Positions 14,212-33,510 of a stretch of 64,000 nucleotides of DNA are shown here, in pieces. A model generated the notes under the pieces. The model was not told the origin of the DNA, did not search any database, and saw nothing but the letters and a program-made list of their open reading frames with translations. Position numbers and translations under genes: made by a program. Position 1 is the stretch's first letter. Every line of letters begins with the position of its first letter. The stretch comes from Epilithonimonas zeae (lineage in GTDB: Bacteria > Bacteroidota > Bacteroidia > Flavobacteriales > Weeksellaceae): the NCBI RefSeq assembly GCF_023278365.1, contig NZ_CP075338.1, positions 310,001 to 374,000 of the forward strand. Reading direction: 5' to 3'.

Positions 14212-16776
14212 ATGAATAAACTGAAACTACTTTATGTATTCTTTTTACTTGCATTTATGCAGGTATCAGGACAGTCTGTTACGTTTAACGAATCGGCAGG
14301 CTGGATAGAAACTGCCTTTGTAAAATGGCAGCCGGTGGAAAATGCCGGTAGATACAATGTTTACTATTCTGGTGAAGGTGTAGTCAATAAGCAGGTCGAT
14401 GATTATTTGATTCGTAGCTACGGATCATATCTGAGAGCTGATATTTTGGGATTAAAAGCAGGAAATTATACGATTACTGTTAAGCCTGTGATTCTGGGAA
14501 TCGAAGGTTCTGGCTCTACAACGGGAACTTTGACCGTTCTACCCCAGGACAGAAACGGTTTTGCTTTCCACGGCGGAAGAGTTCCTGGCGGATACAAAGC
14601 TGACGGAACACCAAAAGATAATGCAGTGATTCTTTACATTACTGAAAAAAGTAAAAACACGATCTCTTTCAATGTAATTACGAATAACAACGGAAATACA
14701 ACTAATTATGTTGGCTTCCAGAATATCTTTTCTGGAATCAAAAAAGGAATTGATAAGAGACCATATATTTTCAGACTGGTAGGTAATATTACAGATTTTA
14801 CCGATATGGAAGGTGGTGATCTTGTGGTTGAAAACAAGAATAACGATTTAAGTTACATCACTGTAGAAGGTGTTGGAGACGATGCAACAGCAAACGGTTG
14901 GGGAATTCGTGTTAAGAATGCTACCAATGTTGAGATTGCGAATCTTGGATTTATGAATTGTGACAGCAGCGAAGGCGATAACATCGGGATGCAGCAAAAC
15001 AATTCTTACATCTGGGTTCATAACAACGACTTGTTCTACGGACACGCAGGTAGTGACGCAGATCAGATCAAAGGAGATGGCGCATTGGATAACAAAGGGA
15101 CATCTTATGCAACGTATTCTTACAACCACTTCTGGGATTCTGGGAAAGCAAGTTTATTAGGTCTAAGTGAAAATACAACTGCTGGTTTGTACGTGACCTA
15201 CCACCACAATTGGTTTGATCATTCAGATTCCAGACATCCGAGAGTTCGTTATTATTCGGCTCATATTTATAACAATTATTTTGACGGAATTGCAAAGTAC
15301 GGTTCTGGCTCTACAGAAGGTTCATCTTTATTTTTAGAAGGAAACTATTTCCGCAATGCAAAAAATCCAATGATGATCTCGCTTCAGGGAACAGATGTTT
15401 GGAATCCTTCAAAACAAATGAATGATCCAACTAATCAGGGAACTTTCTCTGGCGAAGATGGCGGAATGATTAAGGCTTTCAATAACTTGATGGACGCTGA
15501 TATTGCAACCAATTCTATGCGTTTTGTAGCTTATGCAGACCCTAATCCTTTATATAATATCGAAGGGAAAATCAGTTCATTGACAGATTTTGATGCTTAC
15601 TTAGCAGCAACTCGTGGCGAAACTGTTCCGGCAACTGTGAAGTCGAAAGTGGGTGCAAAAACGTATAATAACTTTGATACAGATGCTTCGCTTTATGTTA
15701 AAAATTTATCTGTTGAAGAACCAACTGTAGCGAGAGACAGAACAAAATTATATGCTGGACGTGCTCAAGGTGGCGATTTCAAATGGACTTTCGACAACAC
15801 TGTGGATGACAAATCTTACGCAGTAATTGCAGGTCTTAAATCTGCGTTGACAAACTATGGGACTTCTATGGTTTATATTCAGGCAGAAGGTAGTTCTCAG
15901 ACTTTGGTTAATACTTCTGGAAACAAAGATCAAACGGTTGCTACAGGTGCTGCAGTTGCTCCAATTGTCTTCACTTGGGGTGGAGATGCGACAGATGTTA
16001 CATTAACTGGTGTTACAAATGGTCTTACTTTCACAAAAGATGCAACGGCTAAAACTGTTACAATTACTGGAACACCAACTCAAACTACTTCTTACACGGT
16101 TACAACTGTTGGCACTTCAGGAACTTCAGCTTCTATCAGTGGAACAGTAACAGTTGGTACACCTGGAAATCCGGGATCAACAGATGGAATGATTCACAAC
16201 TTCACAACATCTGGAAAAATAAGTACATTCTATGCAATTACAGGTAATATGAACTCTACGGATGGTTCTCAGTCTTACGACGGATTAACGTTGACAAAAC
16301 GTTTCAAAATGGAATCTTCTACGAGTATCAAATACACTACAACAGCAGAATCTACATTAACTTTGGTTTTCGATGCTGATTTTGCTAAAGTGGTTAAGTT
16401 CGATGGCGTGAATTATACAGCGGCCAATGGTATTGTTACAATTCCTAATGTTGCAGCTGGAGAACACACGATTACAAAAGGAGATACAACCAACTTGTAC
16501 TATATCAAGACGGTTTATGCAACAATGGCAACATCCGATATCAACAAAGCCCAAGTCACTTTATATCCAAATCCGGTATCAGATCATTTATATATCAACA
16601 CCGCTGGACAAAAAGTTCTGAGCGTTAAAGTTTACAATTTTGCAGGTGCTTTGGTTAAGAACATTGTTGATGCAAAAGCGGATTCAGTTGATTTGAGAAA
16701 CCTTGTATCAGGTAATTATATCATCAGCATCACAACTGATAAAGGAACAATTACCAAAAAGATTATCAAAAAATAA
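14212..16776 (+). CDS. Secreted multidomain pectate lyase (PL1) with T9SS sorting domain
   Basis: 854 residues. Visible order: signal peptide (1-20), a fibronectin-III-like domain (about 23-110), a PL1 right-handed beta-helix (about 117-562), an Ig-like linker rich in Thr/Val (about 565-653), a beta-sandwich resembling pectin-binding CBM77-type modules (about 659-775, with LKRFKMESSTSIKYTT-like strands), and a T9SS type A sorting domain (about 782-854, starting VTLYPNPVSDHLYI and ending TKKIIKK). The catalytic region contains HAGSDADQIKGD and SDSRHPRVRYYS, with the arginine expected for beta-elimination. The enzyme should cleave polygalacturonate outside the cell to give unsaturated oligogalacturonides. 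The CBM assignment is tentative. Confidence 0.93.
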   Translation: MNKLKLLYVFFLLAFMQVSGQSVTFNESAGWIETAFVKWQPVENAGRYNVYYSGEGVVNKQVDDYLIRSYGSYLRADILGLKAGNYTITVKPVILGIEGSGSTTGTLTVLPQDRNGFAFHGGRVPGGYKADGTPKDNAVILYITEKSKNTISFNVITNNNGNTTNYVGFQNIFSGIKKGIDKRPYIFRLVGNITDFTDMEGGDLVVENKNNDLSYITVEGVGDDATANGWGIRVKNATNVEIANLGFMNCDSSEGDNIGMQQNNSYIWVHNNDLFYGHAGSDADQIKGDGALDNKGTSYATYSYNHFWDSGKASLLGLSENTTAGLYVTYHHNWFDHSDSRHPRVRYYSAHIYNNYFDGIAKYGSGSTEGSSLFLEGNYFRNAKNPMMISLQGTDVWNPSKQMNDPTNQGTFSGEDGGMIKAFNNLMDADIATNSMRFVAYADPNPLYNIEGKISSLTDFDAYLAATRGETVPATVKSKVGAKTYNNFDTDASLYVKNLSVEEPTVARDRTKLYAGRAQGGDFKWTFDNTVDDKSYAVIAGLKSALTNYGTSMVYIQAEGSSQTLVNTSGNKDQTVATGAAVAPIVFTWGGDATDVTLTGVTNGLTFTKDATAKTVTITGTPTQTTSYTVTTVGTSGTSASISGTVTVGTPGNPGSTDGMIHNFTTSGKISTFYAITGNMNSTDGSQSYDGLTLTKRFKMESSTSIKYTTTAESTLTLVFDADFAKVVKFDGVNYTAANGIVTIPNVAAGEHTITKGDTTNLYYIKTVYATMATSDINKAQVTLYPNPVSDHLYINTAGQKVLSVKVYNFAGALVKNIVDAKADSVDLRNLVSGNYIISITTDKGTITKKIIKK

Positions 16777-25778: not shown

Positions 25779-25792
25779 TGCAATCGATTGCT
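25779..25792. promoter_or_regulatory. LacI-type operator, distal site upstream of the first small T9SS protein
   Basis: TGCAATCGATTGCT, 13 of 14 identical to the palindrome at 8756-8769. It lies 230 bases upstream of the proximal site (26009), a distance at which a tetrameric LacI protein could form a loop. Confidence 0.7.
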
Positions 25793-25966: not shown

Positions 25967-25991
25967 AATAATTTTATATTAGAACCGTCGA
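25967..25991 (+). promoter_or_regulatory. Conserved promoter block of the first small T9SS gene
   Basis: 25 bases identical to 27235-27259. The block includes the -7-like TATATTAG (25975-25982) and GAACCGTCGA. It is followed after 17 bases by the operator and then after 38 bases by the start codon, the same spacing as in the paralog. Confidence 0.55.
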
Positions 25992-26008: not shown

Positions 26009-26022
26009 TGTAATCGATTGCG
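26009..26022. promoter_or_regulatory. LacI-type operator, proximal site
   Basis: TGTAATCGATTGCG. It lies 38 bases before the start codon at 26061 and about 26 bases after the -7-like element, as at 27277-27290. Confidence 0.75.
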
Positions 26023-26060: not shown

Positions 26061-26852
26061 ATGAAAAAACTATTATTTTCTTTAATGTTTGCGGGGATTT
26101 CTGCAGTTACATTCAATTCTCAAAGTAAAACTTGGGACTTTAGCGATACTTCAAGATTTCCTGCTGGTGCCATTGCGATTGATAAAACTGTGGATGGTTT
26201 GTCCTTTGTTACAGGAGGCAGCAATCTTACTATAGCGACTAACAGTCTTGCAACGTTTGACGACGGTTATGCTCCTACTCAACGTTTACAATTTGGCGGT
26301 AACAGCTATAGCGGTTCTACGAATCCTGCTGTAGGAACGACTTCTATGCCGACAAGAAGGTATTTGCAATTTGCGGTGTCTAGCAACGCTGTGATTAAGT
26401 TTTGGGCAAGAGGAGGAGGAGCTAACAGGTCAATTCTGATTTCGGACGAAACCGGAAAGGTGTTGAGCTCAACAACATTTGCAGGAAATACAACTGCTGA
26501 TATAGCTATTGCGACTTATACTTATACAGGTGCTGCTGGAAACATCTTGATAACGACTGGTAGTGGTGATAATAGTTTGTATAAAATAGAATATACTGAT
26601 AATGCTACAATGGCTGTTGGTGATGTAAAGTCTAAAAATAAACTAAATGCCTTCTCTGCAGGAAACAAAATCTACATCAAAGATTTAGATGCTAAGAATA
26701 CTCAGGTTAATGTATATTCTGCTAATGGTACGTTGGTCAAATCTTTGAAAACGACTTTGGATACTGATTTTGTGATCGATAATAAAGGTATTTACATTGT
26801 AAATCTGAAATCAGAAGCAGTAGAAAAATCTGTGAAGGTTATGATTAAATAA
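26061..26852 (+). CDS. Small T9SS-exported beta-rich protein of unknown function, paralog 1
   Basis: 263 residues: signal peptide (about 1-20), one beta-rich domain of about 165 residues starting KTWDFSDTSRF with the conserved stretch RRYLQFAVSSNAVIKFWARG, and a C-terminal sorting-type domain of about 75 residues ending GIYIVNLKSEAVEKSVKVMI. No catalytic motif was recognised. The beta domain recalls accessory modules found beside pectate lyase domains, so a pectin-binding role is possible. The whole layout is repeated in the protein at 27329-28108. The gene has its own promoter block, operator and terminator, making it a single-gene unit within the pectin regulon. Confidence 0.8.
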   Translation: MKKLLFSLMFAGISAVTFNSQSKTWDFSDTSRFPAGAIAIDKTVDGLSFVTGGSNLTIATNSLATFDDGYAPTQRLQFGGNSYSGSTNPAVGTTSMPTRRYLQFAVSSNAVIKFWARGGGANRSILISDETGKVLSSTTFAGNTTADIAIATYTYTGAAGNILITTGSGDNSLYKIEYTDNATMAVGDVKSKNKLNAFSAGNKIYIKDLDAKNTQVNVYSANGTLVKSLKTTLDTDFVIDNKGIYIVNLKSEAVEKSVKVMIK

Positions 26853-26896
26853 AAAATTAAGTTATAAATATTTTTCATATTATTTTTTTAAGAAAG

Positions 26897-26929
26897 CCCT
26901 TGGAATCTTTATTCTAAGGGTTTTTCTTT
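26897..26929 (+). terminator. Intrinsic terminator of paralog 1
   Basis: The 10-bp stem CCCTTGGAAT / ATTCTAAGGG has one G-U pair and a 4-base loop, and is followed by TTTTTCTTT. Confidence 0.85.
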
Positions 26930-27069
26930 GATTCGAATATTATTAAAGCAATTTTATTTTAATATTTCTATTTGAAACAATAGATGTCTATCAGTATGAC
27001 ATAGATAATAGATTTTTTTTTGGAAATTTAGTTATTCCAAGAACTTGGATGTGTTTTTAGTTAAATTAA

Positions 27070-27083
27070 GACAACCGATTGCG
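27070..27083. promoter_or_regulatory. Degenerate operator-like site upstream of paralog 2
   Basis: GACAACCGATTGCG keeps the right half-site CGATTGCG of the operator family, but its left half is diverged. It sits 207 bases before the good site at 27277, mirroring the paired-site arrangement in front of paralog 1. Confidence 0.4.
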
Positions 27084-27222
27084 CAGATTTTAATCTAAAA
27101 AATAACTTTTTCAAGATTAAAATATTAAAATTTACACTTGTTATTTTAATTTGAAACCATTATTAATAGAGGGTTTCTGTCTAGTGTTAAAGAAAATTAA
27201 TATTAAATTAAAAGAAAATATC

Positions 27223-27259
27223 TTGGAATTGAATAATAATTTTATATTAGAACCGTCGA
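27223..27259 (+). promoter_or_regulatory. Promoter region of paralog 2
   Basis: TTG at 27223-27225, 17 bases, then TATATTAG at 27243-27250 (one mismatch to TAnnTTTG). The block 27235-27259 is identical to 25967-25991. The rest of the 476-base gap (26853-27328) shows only the terminator, the operator-like sites and AT-rich sequence. Confidence 0.5.
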
Positions 27260-27276
27260 ATTACTATAAATATTTG

Positions 27277-27290
27277 TGTAATCGATTGCA
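27277..27290. promoter_or_regulatory. LacI-type operator upstream of paralog 2
   Basis: TGTAATCGATTGCA, identical to the kduI site at 8086-8099. It lies 38 bases before the start codon at 27329. Confidence 0.78.
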
Positions 27291-27328
27291 TTAAAAACTT
27301 AAACAAACAATTAATAAATCATTTTATC

Positions 27329-28108
27329 ATGAAAAAATCATTACTTCTTTTAGCATTTGCAGTTGTTGCTACTGTAGGGAACGTGAAAGCGCAAACCACT
27401 TGGGACTTTTCATCTGCTGCTTGGCCAGTGATATCTGGTGAAACTGCAAAAGTGAAAAATAATCTGGCATTGGTTCCTGGACCAGAAACTGTTGTTAATT
27501 TTGGAGCTGTGGAAGCTAATACTGCTACTTTTTCAGATGGCTACTCCGCATCAAAACGTTTTAAACTGAATGGTGGAGGTTATACTTCGACAGGAGTTAA
27601 TACAACGCCGACACAACGTTACATATACTTTAAAGCAAATGGTAACTCTTCTATTACTATTTGGTACAAAAACGGAGGTGGTGGAGACCGAACTTTGTAT
27701 ATCGGTACAGGAACAGAAATTTTAGCTTCTAAGACTTATTCTAATTCGCAAGATGGTATTATCTATACTTATGATTATGCTGGACCTGCAAGAGATATCT
27801 ATATCTACGGAGATCAGTCTCTTAACATTTATAAAATTACGGCAACTAACGTTGGAAACACAGTTCTTGGTGTGAATGATGTGAAGAAAGATTTGAAAGC
27901 TACAGTTTATACCAATGGAAACAAAGTAGTGGTTTCTAATCTTGAATCTAAAAATACAGAGGTTAATATTTTCAATGCGAACGGATCTTTGGTAAAATCT
28001 ATGACGACTTCTACTGATGCTAACTTTGAATTGAGTACTAAAGGTTTATATATCGTAAATCTTAAATCTCAGGCAGGTGAAAAATCTGTGAAAGTTTTAA
28101 TCAGATAA
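27329..28108 (+). CDS. Small T9SS-exported beta-rich protein of unknown function, paralog 2
   Basis: 259 residues and clearly homologous to the preceding protein: signal peptide ending KAQ, TTWDFSSAAWP start of the beta domain, DGYSASKRFKLNGGGYTS, RYIYFKANGNSSITIWYKNG, and a C-terminal domain ending GLYIVNLKSQAGEKSVKVLI. The C-terminal domains are the most similar parts (KNTEVNIFNANGSLVKSM against KNTQVNVYSANGTLVKSL), while the beta domains have diverged, consistent with different ligands. No enzyme motif is visible. Like its partner it is a stand-alone transcription unit under the pectin operator. Binding of pectic glycans outside the cell is a hypothesis. Confidence 0.8.
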   Translation: MKKSLLLLAFAVVATVGNVKAQTTWDFSSAAWPVISGETAKVKNNLALVPGPETVVNFGAVEANTATFSDGYSASKRFKLNGGGYTSTGVNTTPTQRYIYFKANGNSSITIWYKNGGGGDRTLYIGTGTEILASKTYSNSQDGIIYTYDYAGPARDIYIYGDQSLNIYKITATNVGNTVLGVNDVKKDLKATVYTNGNKVVVSNLESKNTEVNIFNANGSLVKSMTTSTDANFELSTKGLYIVNLKSQAGEKSVKVLIR

Positions 28109-28171: not shown

Positions 28172-28209
28172 AAAGTTTGATGAAACGTGTTTTTATCAAA
28201 CTTTTTTTT
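28172..28209 (+). terminator. Intrinsic terminator of paralog 2
   Basis: Perfect 10-bp stem AAAGTTTGAT / ATCAAACTTT with a 13-base loop, then a T-run. Confidence 0.85.
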
Positions 28210-28313: not shown

Positions 28314-29621
28314 ATGAAAAGAATATTTTTAATACTCACATTTCTTACATCAACTATTATTACCCATCTAAACGCACAATGTCCTGTTTCCGGTTGGGCT
28401 TCTACAAATGGTGTTACCGGAGGCGGATCAGCAACTCCTACTGTTGTTACGACTTATGCAGAGTTAAGAGCTGCAGTAAACAGTACCTCGGTAAAAGTTA
28501 TACACGTTTCGGGGCAAATTACTTTTCCTGCTGCCGGACGGTTGACGTTGAATAATCAAACCAACAAATCCATTTTAGGTTTATCCGGCGCTAGATTGAT
28601 TTCTACGGATCTTACGGCTGGCGGTTCAGGAATTCTTACCCTGAAAAGCAGTTCCAATATTTTGATAAAGAATATCACGTTTGAAGGTCCTGGTGCTTAT
28701 GATGTAGATGGAAATGATAATATGACCATTGATAACTGCACCAATGTTTGGGTGGATCACTGTACATTTCAGGATGCTTTGGATGGTAATCTTGATATCA
28801 AAAATGCTTCTGATCTAATTACTATAACATGGACAAAATTCGAATATCTGAAAGCTCCGATTCCTGGCGGTTCTGGTGGAAGTAATGATCACCGTTTCTC
28901 TAATCTTTTTGGCTCTGGTGATGATGCGACTCAAGATGAAGGAAAATTGAGAATTACGATGCAATATTGTTGGTGGGCCAATGGTGTAAGAGAAAGAATG
29001 CCAAGAGTACGTTACGGAAAAGTTCATCTTTTGAATAATTATTTTAATAGTTCTGTAAGTAATTACTGTATTTATGCAGGTTATAAAGCAGATTTGCTAA
29101 TAGAAGGTAATTATTTTGAGGGCGTGAAAAATCCAATCCGTTTAGAAACCGGGAATTTCACTGCCGCTCAATCTGTTGATAATACATTTGTTGGGACATC
29201 GGGAACAGCAGTTGGTTCAGGAACAGCTTTTACGCCACCTTACTCGATTAACAAAATTGCATCTCAGGATGTGAAACAAACGGTTATGTCAGGTGCAGGC
29301 GCAGTTTTGTTACAACCAACCGATTGTGTTTTTTTAGCAACAAATGAAATCCATTCCAAGTCAAAATCTGAATTTCTACTTTTCCCAAATCCGGCTTCGG
29401 AACAGATTTCTTTAAAAGCTTTTTCTGAAAATAATCAGTTGGTAAAAATTAACGTGACAGATATTTCAGGAAAATCAGAAGGAACAATTTATCAGGGAAA
29501 TATTAATAAAGGAAATAATACAATCCATTCAATTTCAATTAAAAAATTGAGTAAGGGAGTGAAGCTTTTTGAAGTGAAAACTGATAAAGGTTCTTACACC
29601 CAAAAAGTGATTGTAAAATAA
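28314..29621 (+). CDS. Secreted pectate lyase (PL1), compact, with T9SS sorting domain
   Basis: 435 residues: signal peptide (about 1-22), PL1 beta-helix (about 25-340) and T9SS domain (about 355-435, FLLFPNPASEQISL to YTQKVIVK). Calcium and catalytic motifs include CTNVWVDHCTFQDALDGNLD (classic PL1 WVDHC) and ERMPRVRYGKVHLLNNYF, with the catalytic arginine. The shorter single-domain build differs from the 854-residue PL1, suggesting a different PL1 subfamily and complementary action on polygalacturonate. The gene lies 42 bases upstream of the third CE8 gene, so the two probably form one transcript: de-esterify and cleave at the cell surface. Confidence 0.93.
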   Translation: MKRIFLILTFLTSTIITHLNAQCPVSGWASTNGVTGGGSATPTVVTTYAELRAAVNSTSVKVIHVSGQITFPAAGRLTLNNQTNKSILGLSGARLISTDLTAGGSGILTLKSSSNILIKNITFEGPGAYDVDGNDNMTIDNCTNVWVDHCTFQDALDGNLDIKNASDLITITWTKFEYLKAPIPGGSGGSNDHRFSNLFGSGDDATQDEGKLRITMQYCWWANGVRERMPRVRYGKVHLLNNYFNSSVSNYCIYAGYKADLLIEGNYFEGVKNPIRLETGNFTAAQSVDNTFVGTSGTAVGSGTAFTPPYSINKIASQDVKQTVMSGAGAVLLQPTDCVFLATNEIHSKSKSEFLLFPNPASEQISLKAFSENNQLVKINVTDISGKSEGTIYQGNINKGNNTIHSISIKKLSKGVKLFEVKTDKGSYTQKVIVK

Positions 29622-32478: not shown

Positions 32479-33510
32479 ATGACTAAGAAAAACACGACGA
32501 TATATGACATTTCCAAAAAACTGAATGTAAGCGTAGCCACTGTTTCCAGAGCGCTAAACGACCATCCAAGAATTAGTCAGGAAACCAAGGAATTGGTAGC
32601 TGCTACAGCTAAGGAAATGAATTATAAACAGAACAATTTGGCAAAAGCCCTGCAAAGTGGAGAGACCAAAACTGTGGGTGTGATTGTGCCTTATATCAAT
32701 ACCAATTTTTTCTCATCCGTCATTAGAGGAATAGAGGAAGAGCTGTCTCCTCACGGCTATCGTGTGATTATTTGTCAAAGTCACGATGATGCTGCAATAG
32801 AAAAGAAACAGCTCAATACGTTGTTGCATACTCAGGTAGATTGTATTTTCATTTCGATATCAAGAAACACGACGGATATGGATTATGTGAGAAAAATCCT
32901 GAGCACAACCAATACACCAATTATTCTTTTTGATAGAAAAAAAGATATACCAGGCGTAAGTACAATCACGATTGATGACCACAAAGGGGCATATCAGGCA
33001 ACAGAACATTTGATCAACCAAGGTTATAAAAATATTTGTCATTTCTCTGGAGATCAGAATCTGGAAATTTATCAGAATCGTTTGAATGGCTATATTGATG
33101 CTTTGAAAGATCATAATCTACCAGTATTGAAGGAAAATATTATCAATACAGGAAGTTCTATCGAAGAAGGAATCAGTGCTATGAAAAGTCTTTGGAAACG
33201 CAAAGTGAAACCGGATGCTATTTTCTCTGCCAGTGATTTTACAGCTTTAGGTGCATGCAAAGAAATCAAAAATCTTAAACTTAAAATCCCTCAGGATATT
33301 GGCGTAATTGGTTTCAGTAATGAGCCATTTACTCAATTTATGGAGTTATCAATAAGCTCTGTTGACCAAACACCTGTTTTGATGGGGAAAATCTCAGGAA
33401 ATGTCTTTCTGGAAAGTATCAAAGACAATTCTTCCGGAATCAGTATCGAAAAAAAATTGGTTTTGACGCCAACGCTTCATATCAGACAATCATCCAGCAG
33501 AAAAAAATAA
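32479..33510 (+). CDS. LacI-family transcriptional regulator, probable pectin-regulon repressor
   Basis: 343 residues. The N-terminal LacI HTH is TIYDISKKLNVSVATVSRAL (helix-turn-helix and hinge in residues 1-60), followed by a periplasmic-binding-protein-like effector domain starting TVGVIVPYINTNFFSSVIRG and containing FDRKKDIPGVSTITIDDHKG. It is the only recognised DNA-binding regulator in the pectin locus. LacI proteins bind palindromes with a central CG, matching the TGCAATCGATTGCA sites at 8086, 8756, 25779, 26009 and 27277. The effector is probably a uronate pathway intermediate such as KDG, by analogy only. No copy of the operator was found in front of this gene itself. Confidence 0.93.
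   Translation: MTKKNTTIYDISKKLNVSVATVSRALNDHPRISQETKELVAATAKEMNYKQNNLAKALQSGETKTVGVIVPYINTNFFSSVIRGIEEELSPHGYRVIICQSHDDAAIEKKQLNTLLHTQVDCIFISISRNTTDMDYVRKILSTTNTPIILFDRKKDIPGVSTITIDDHKGAYQATEHLINQGYKNICHFSGDQNLEIYQNRLNGYIDALKDHNLPVLKENIINTGSSIEEGISAMKSLWKRKVKPDAIFSASDFTALGACKEIKNLKLKIPQDIGVIGFSNEPFTQFMELSISSVDQTPVLMGKISGNVFLESIKDNSSGISIEKKLVLTPTLHIRQSSSRKK

Follow-up and report, generated by a model that had tools for sequence, protein, structure and literature searches.

The window analysed here, a 64,000-nucleotide stretch of the 3.94-Mb single-contig genome of Epilithonimonas zeae, carries two adjacent paralogous genes, A and B, which in all likelihood encode stand-alone (orphan) carbohydrate-binding modules for pectic galacturonan, predicted to be exported and placed under LacI-type control (Table 1). 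The main part of each protein resembles the sugar-binding modules of pectinases and is accompanied by no enzyme, so A and B probably help the cell grip pectin.

A and B are intact open reading frames whose products are 39% identical over their full length (E 1e-52), in agreement with the first-pass annotation, which had described two paralogs sharing a signal peptide, one beta-rich domain and a sorting-type C-terminus and lacking a catalytic motif. Each protein combines a signal peptide (judged by eye) with a single beta domain of about 155 aa, in which cysteine is absent, and a C-terminus that passes the curated cut-off of 23 for TIGR04183, the T9SS type A sorting domain, a model matched by 12 of 13 homologs; both C-termini score below the stricter cut-off of Pfam PF18962. 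The host genome encodes SprA of the T9SS, and A and B thus have the features of T9SS type A cargo, for which export is predicted. Neither N-terminus contains a lipobox cysteine, which separates the two proteins from SusE/SusF-type lipoproteins. Identity between A and B amounts to 37% in the signal peptide, 35% in the beta domain and about 51% in the C-terminus, so the earlier wording of divergent beta domains with conserved C-termini is borne out. No catalytic family matched A or B in Pfam or NCBIfam, or the 45 homologs in Pfam, and the confident match to a known enzyme that had been named in advance as contrary evidence did not appear for either protein in those two collections. Additionally, no model in Pfam, NCBIfam or PHROGs covers the beta domain (PHROGs gave weak chance matches only), and a plasmid search for the domain returned no match.

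Table 1. Positions of genes A and B, their domains and predicted control elements, and related features (window coordinates unless a locus or the genome is named).
Feature	Position	Strand	Description
Perfect GYAATCGATTRC sites	window 8087, 8757, 25780, 26010, 27278; genome 538281 and 3552105 (L136, L137)		
PL1 pectate lyase	14212..16776	+	854 aa; CBM77 (residues 660-765) and T9SS tail; co-occurs with the A/B family
A distal operator	25780..25791	+	GCAATCGATTGC; 230 bp upstream of proximal; spacing kept in genus where sequence reaches
A promoter-like block	25970..25991	+	AATTTTATATTAGAACCGTCGA
A proximal LacI-type operator	26010..26021	+	GTAATCGATTGC; 51 nt upstream of ATG
Gene A	26061..26852	+	263 aa; signal peptide ~1-20, beta domain 20-181, T9SS type A sorting tail ~195-263
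A beta domain	26118..26603	+	homologous to 8x8h and 8wc1 carbohydrate-binding domains; pI 5.2
A T9SS type A sorting domain	26643..26849	+	TIGR04183, 27.1 bits
A intrinsic terminator	26892..26925	+	strong hairpin and T-run, -18 kcal/mol, z -4.5
B degenerate distal operator	27071..27082	+	ACAACCGATTGC; 207 bp upstream of proximal; CGATTGC kept in poorly conserved DNA
B promoter-like block	27238..27259	+	identical to that of A; ATTTTATATTAGAAC core invariant in 13 genomes
B proximal operator	27278..27289	+	GTAATCGATTGC; 51 nt upstream of ATG
Gene B	27329..28108	+	259 aa; architecture as in A; conserved slot of the pair
B beta domain	27389..27859	+	homologous to 8wc1 and 8x8h; pI 8.0
B T9SS type A sorting domain	27896..28105	+	TIGR04183, 30.8 bits
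B intrinsic terminator	28172..28204	+	A/T-rich hairpin and T8, -12.2 kcal/mol, z -4.5
LacI-family regulator	32479..33510	+	probable reader of the operators
A-slot examples in Epilithonimonas-like genomes	L017:139-945, L020:2518-3333		
G1036 tandem two-module protein	L127:9047-10270		T9SS tail
G1036 PL1	L128:5583-8087		contains homologous module

A profile search and a structure search agree on the same two PDB entries, 8wc1 and 8x8h, as the best relatives of the beta domain. Both entries bear the title 'A carbohydrate binding domain of a putative pectate lyase', and their proteins are named 'Pectate lyase family 9' and 'Pectate disaccharide-lyase', respectively. Specifically, a profile of 45 homologs compared with all PDB sequences gave E < 1 for these two entries only (7e-5 for 8wc1 and 0.0015 for 8x8h), and hhalign of the A/B family against the pair gave a probability of 94% and an E of 1e-7; single-sequence PDB searches with A and B returned chance matches only (an L,D-transpeptidase at E 0.09) or none. 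Structure prediction, one of the checks proposed with the first-pass annotation, led to the same two binding domains. AlphaFold models made template-free from alignments of 13 sequences each reached a pLDDT of 81.1 for A and 83.9 for B, and in Foldseek searches with either model 8wc1 and 8x8h were the top two matches (target TM-scores 0.79-0.82, E 7e-7 to 6e-10), with values of E 6e-10 and TM-score 0.82 for the A model and E 7e-8 and TM-score 0.79 for the B model. When aligned, A, B, 8wc1 and 8x8h have in common arginines and a glycine of the KR-x-K-x-x-G, R-Y and R-T motifs, and the alignment also contains a near-invariant Asn. Pfam has no model that matches the 8wc1 and 8x8h modules, and a literature search found no paper on either entry.

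By sequence homology and by fold, A and B are of the same kind as 8wc1 and 8x8h; the attachment to a pectinase is missing, as neither protein has an enzyme domain. Such an attachment is found in G1036, a genome of the same class reached with a combined profile, in which an 835-residue PL1 pectate lyase contains a homologous module at residues 517-654 (i-E 2.8e-14). The same genome encodes a 408-residue protein, where a clear module and a second, weaker one stand in tandem ahead of a T9SS tail, and a 192-residue protein with a single module. The fused and free copies of G1036 indicate that the domain exists both as an accessory module of an enzyme and as a stand-alone protein, and because A and B have no enzyme while a G1036 homolog is fused to PL1, we assign them to the same domain family as a stand-alone variant. 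The combined profile also scored weakly against proteases and further long proteins (L119-L123, E 1e-6 to 8e-4), and these matches we judged to be other repeats or unrelated beta domains.

According to Pfam scans, the window holds a full homogalacturonan locus. A minus-strand uronate pathway, consisting of an MFS transporter, KDPG aldolase, PfkB kinase, a cupin protein, UxaC, a short-chain dehydrogenase that we took as KduD, and KduI, is followed by SusC, SusD, PL1-CBM77, three pectinesterases, a glycoside hydrolase of the GH88 Pfam family, GH43, a GDSL esterase and GH28, and then by a further esterase, genes A and B, a second PL1 (PL1b) and a LacI regulator. A literature search found no paper on pectin use by Epilithonimonas, and no such protein is discussed in the available parts of a pectin proteomics study of F. 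johnsoniae (PMC8056085) or of a report on the pectin PUL of Gramella flava (PMC5306329). A survey of co-occurrence with pectin loci had been suggested. Among 249 Weeksellaceae genomes, the domain occurs in 27 and CBM77 in 40, and all 27 carriers fall within the 40 that have PL1-CBM77 (naive p 1e-26, with kinship ignored); at the genus level, all six genera with the domain lie within the seven CBM77 genera of 33 (p 6e-6). Beyond Weeksellaceae the family is rare (15/298 genomes of the order and 6/396 of the phylum). In 21 neighbourhoods (20 extracted loci and L044), every copy lies within 10 kb of a pectate lyase or pectinesterase gene, and SusC/SusD are also near nearly all copies. In many genera the homologs adjoin genes for proteins of 1072-1499 aa that contain a pectinesterase domain and, beyond this CE8 part, are mostly uncharacterised (L096-L115).

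The constant company of pectinases could also mean that A and B have a structural or protein-binding role, as beta-sandwich subunits that would scaffold surface pectinases, for example by docking PL1b or CE8, but would not themselves bind glycans. Many beta-sandwiches bind proteins rather than glycans, a PL1b, PL1-CBM77 or CE8 gene is near an A/B-family gene in all 21 loci, and adhesin domains and enzyme beta-sandwiches also enter the Foldseek lists, at much lower quality. We nevertheless consider such a scaffold unlikely, since every close homolog whose context is known is a carbohydrate-binding domain of a pectate lyase, and the module itself is fused to PL1 in G1036.

The carbohydrate-binding module in question does not appear to be CBM77. 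The first-pass annotation had likened the beta domain to residues 659-775 of the PL1 upstream in the window, and these residues are indeed a CBM77 (PF18283, E 5e-31; 5fu5, E 7e-25), but the likeness itself found no support. PF18283 matches neither A, B nor any of the 45 homologs at E up to 1, hhalign of A/B against CBM77 gives a probability of 17% over 19 columns, BLAST of A/B against the CBM77 module finds nothing beyond an 11-residue DG...KRFK patch, and the CBM77 structure 5fu5 is not among the best 50 matches listed for either fold model. Although the DG...KRFK and N-x-Y-[YK]-I patches are in common, Pfam, hhalign and BLAST reject A and B as true CBM77 members like the module of the neighbouring PL1, and we regard such membership as most improbable. 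On the other hand, the 8x8h module weakly matches 5fu5 (E 0.013), and CBM77 reaches 58% in hhalign with the two pectate-lyase modules, a faint likeness by which a very distant common origin is possible. That A and B are instead cryptic enzymes (lyases, esterases or similar) of an unnamed family, an idea invited by exported single-domain proteins of a pectin regulon with no assigned function, is hardly credible in view of homologs annotated as carbohydrate-binding domains, the lack of cysteine and a set of near-invariant residues (Arg, Gly, Trp, Asn and Pro) that includes no obvious catalytic set.

The control regions agree with the earlier description of A and B as stand-alone units with an operator and a terminator each, as both genes have a GTAATCGATTGC site at the same distance upstream of the start and a hairpin downstream, that of B having been missed by the GC-based terminator scan. 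In addition, a 22-bp block is identical before A and B and was found 0 times in shuffles. The window contains five GYAATCGATTRC sites compared with 0.03 expected from shuffles, and the whole genome contains seven perfect sites compared with one in a reversed-pattern control. All seven are located at pectin genes, five of them in this locus (KduI, SusC, A twice, and B), one before the gene of a RhaT transporter that has PL11 and GH88-family genes next to it, and one before a distant GH28. As judged from sequence, the seven sites define a compact pectin regulon, including RhaT beside PL11 and the distant GH28, and A and B fall within it by a predicted, conserved operator in common with other pectin genes. 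Across 13 genomes of the genus, the proximal GTAATCGATTGC is invariant at 12 of 12 positions and lies 44-51 nt upstream of the start in all 26 A/B genes; the B alignment shows no variation at any of the 12 operator positions or in a 15-nt promoter-like core. Outside the genus, 17 of 19 homologs are preceded within 330 bp by a site that has no more than one mismatch. The secondary sites upstream of the proximal ones keep their spacing across genomes, which suggests repression by DNA looping, and the LacI-family protein encoded downstream probably reads the GTAATCGATTGC operators. A sigma-70 promoter scan gave chance numbers only, as is expected for Bacteroidota. PL1b (28314-29621) is without a separate operator and begins some 110 nt downstream of the B terminator, so read-through from B is possible and PL1b expression may depend on it.

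The two genes have evolved at different rates. In 13 genomes, the mean identity of the beta domains is 77% for B-B, 51% for A-A and 34% for A-B pairs, whereas the tails are nearly equal (B-B 71%, A-A 65% and A-B 63%) and do not seem to track paralogy, as if they had been exchanged between genes or held by a common constraint. Recent gene conversion of tails within genomes has no support, the A-B identity being 63% both within and across genomes. The A-slot domain of two genomes, G131 and G143, falls nearer to B in the tree, on long branches that make its placement unsure, and it may not be orthologous to the A of the window. A fast-evolving A slot, a conserved B and the differing pI of the two domains would fit different ligands served by a common export tail.

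Taken together, we propose that galacturonate breakdown products would relieve a LacI-family repressor at the GTAATCGATTGC operators, A and B would each be transcribed separately, as a short message, in parallel with SusCD and the KduI pathway, and Sec and the T9SS would export them to the cell surface or the medium, where the beta-sandwich may hold homogalacturonan near surface pectate lyases, pectinesterases and SusCD. B would be the conserved module, and A a faster-evolving second module, probably for a different form of pectin, such as one of another methylation degree. We infer induction by uronates, export and the holding of galacturonan from established knowledge of PULs and the T9SS. 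The original idea of secreted or surface-bound, non-catalytic pectin-binding proteins is thereby retained, on the strength of homology and fold relating them to pectate-lyase binding domains, the PL1 fusion, the co-occurrence and the operator regulon, with its CBM77 likeness removed. Against binding, the acidic A domain is not like a lysine-driven polyanion binder such as BT0996-C, and the conserved arginines of the domain may be structural. A bolder proposal, possible rather than probable, is that A and B together act as a dedicated pectin-capture layer with separate dosing, in which a constant, galacturonan-binding B and a rapidly diversifying A tuned to local pectin (methylation, acetylation or side chains) use an interchangeable T9SS tail, as a non-SusE/F surface glycan-binding system specific to pectin loci of Bacteroidota.

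These results give a probable function to a family without a Pfam or NCBIfam name, which ranges over pectin loci of Weeksellaceae, of another family of the same order and of more distant Bacteroidota, and supply a biological setting for the solved structures 8wc1 and 8x8h. Compared with these two, A and B have a homologous domain by profile and predicted fold, with the Arg/Gly motif in common; 8wc1 and 8x8h are modules of enzymes, whereas A and B are an adjacent pair with no catalytic domain, with T9SS tails and with their own operators, so that homology and modelling identify them as a stand-alone, T9SS-tailed variant of the pectate-lyase carbohydrate-binding domain. CBM77 (PF18283, 5fu5) is likewise a pectate-lyase-associated binding module, encoded in the same gene cluster and with a short motif in common, but A and B are not members by sequence, and their domains, at about 155 residues, exceed its 108. 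BT0996-C of Bacteroides thetaiotaomicron, a polygalacturonate-binding CBM that is CBM6/35-like, lysine-rich and of pI 9.43, is also a beta-sandwich module tied to pectin degradation, yet it has no detected homology to the A and B domains, whose pI values are 5.2 and 8.0 (PMC9843283). A and B probably share their task, the non-catalytic capture of polysaccharide beside SusCD, with the surface glycan-binding proteins of PULs (SusE/SusF, SGBP-A/B); unlike these, A and B have no lipobox (no cysteine), carry a T9SS tail and match no SusE/F family, and in this genome their genes lie about 12 kb from SusD. If our reading is true, the paired conserved and fast-evolving slots would readily yield pectin probes that differ in specificity, and PULs would gain, in addition to SusD and the SusE/F lipoproteins, a type of glycan-binding protein delivered by the T9SS.
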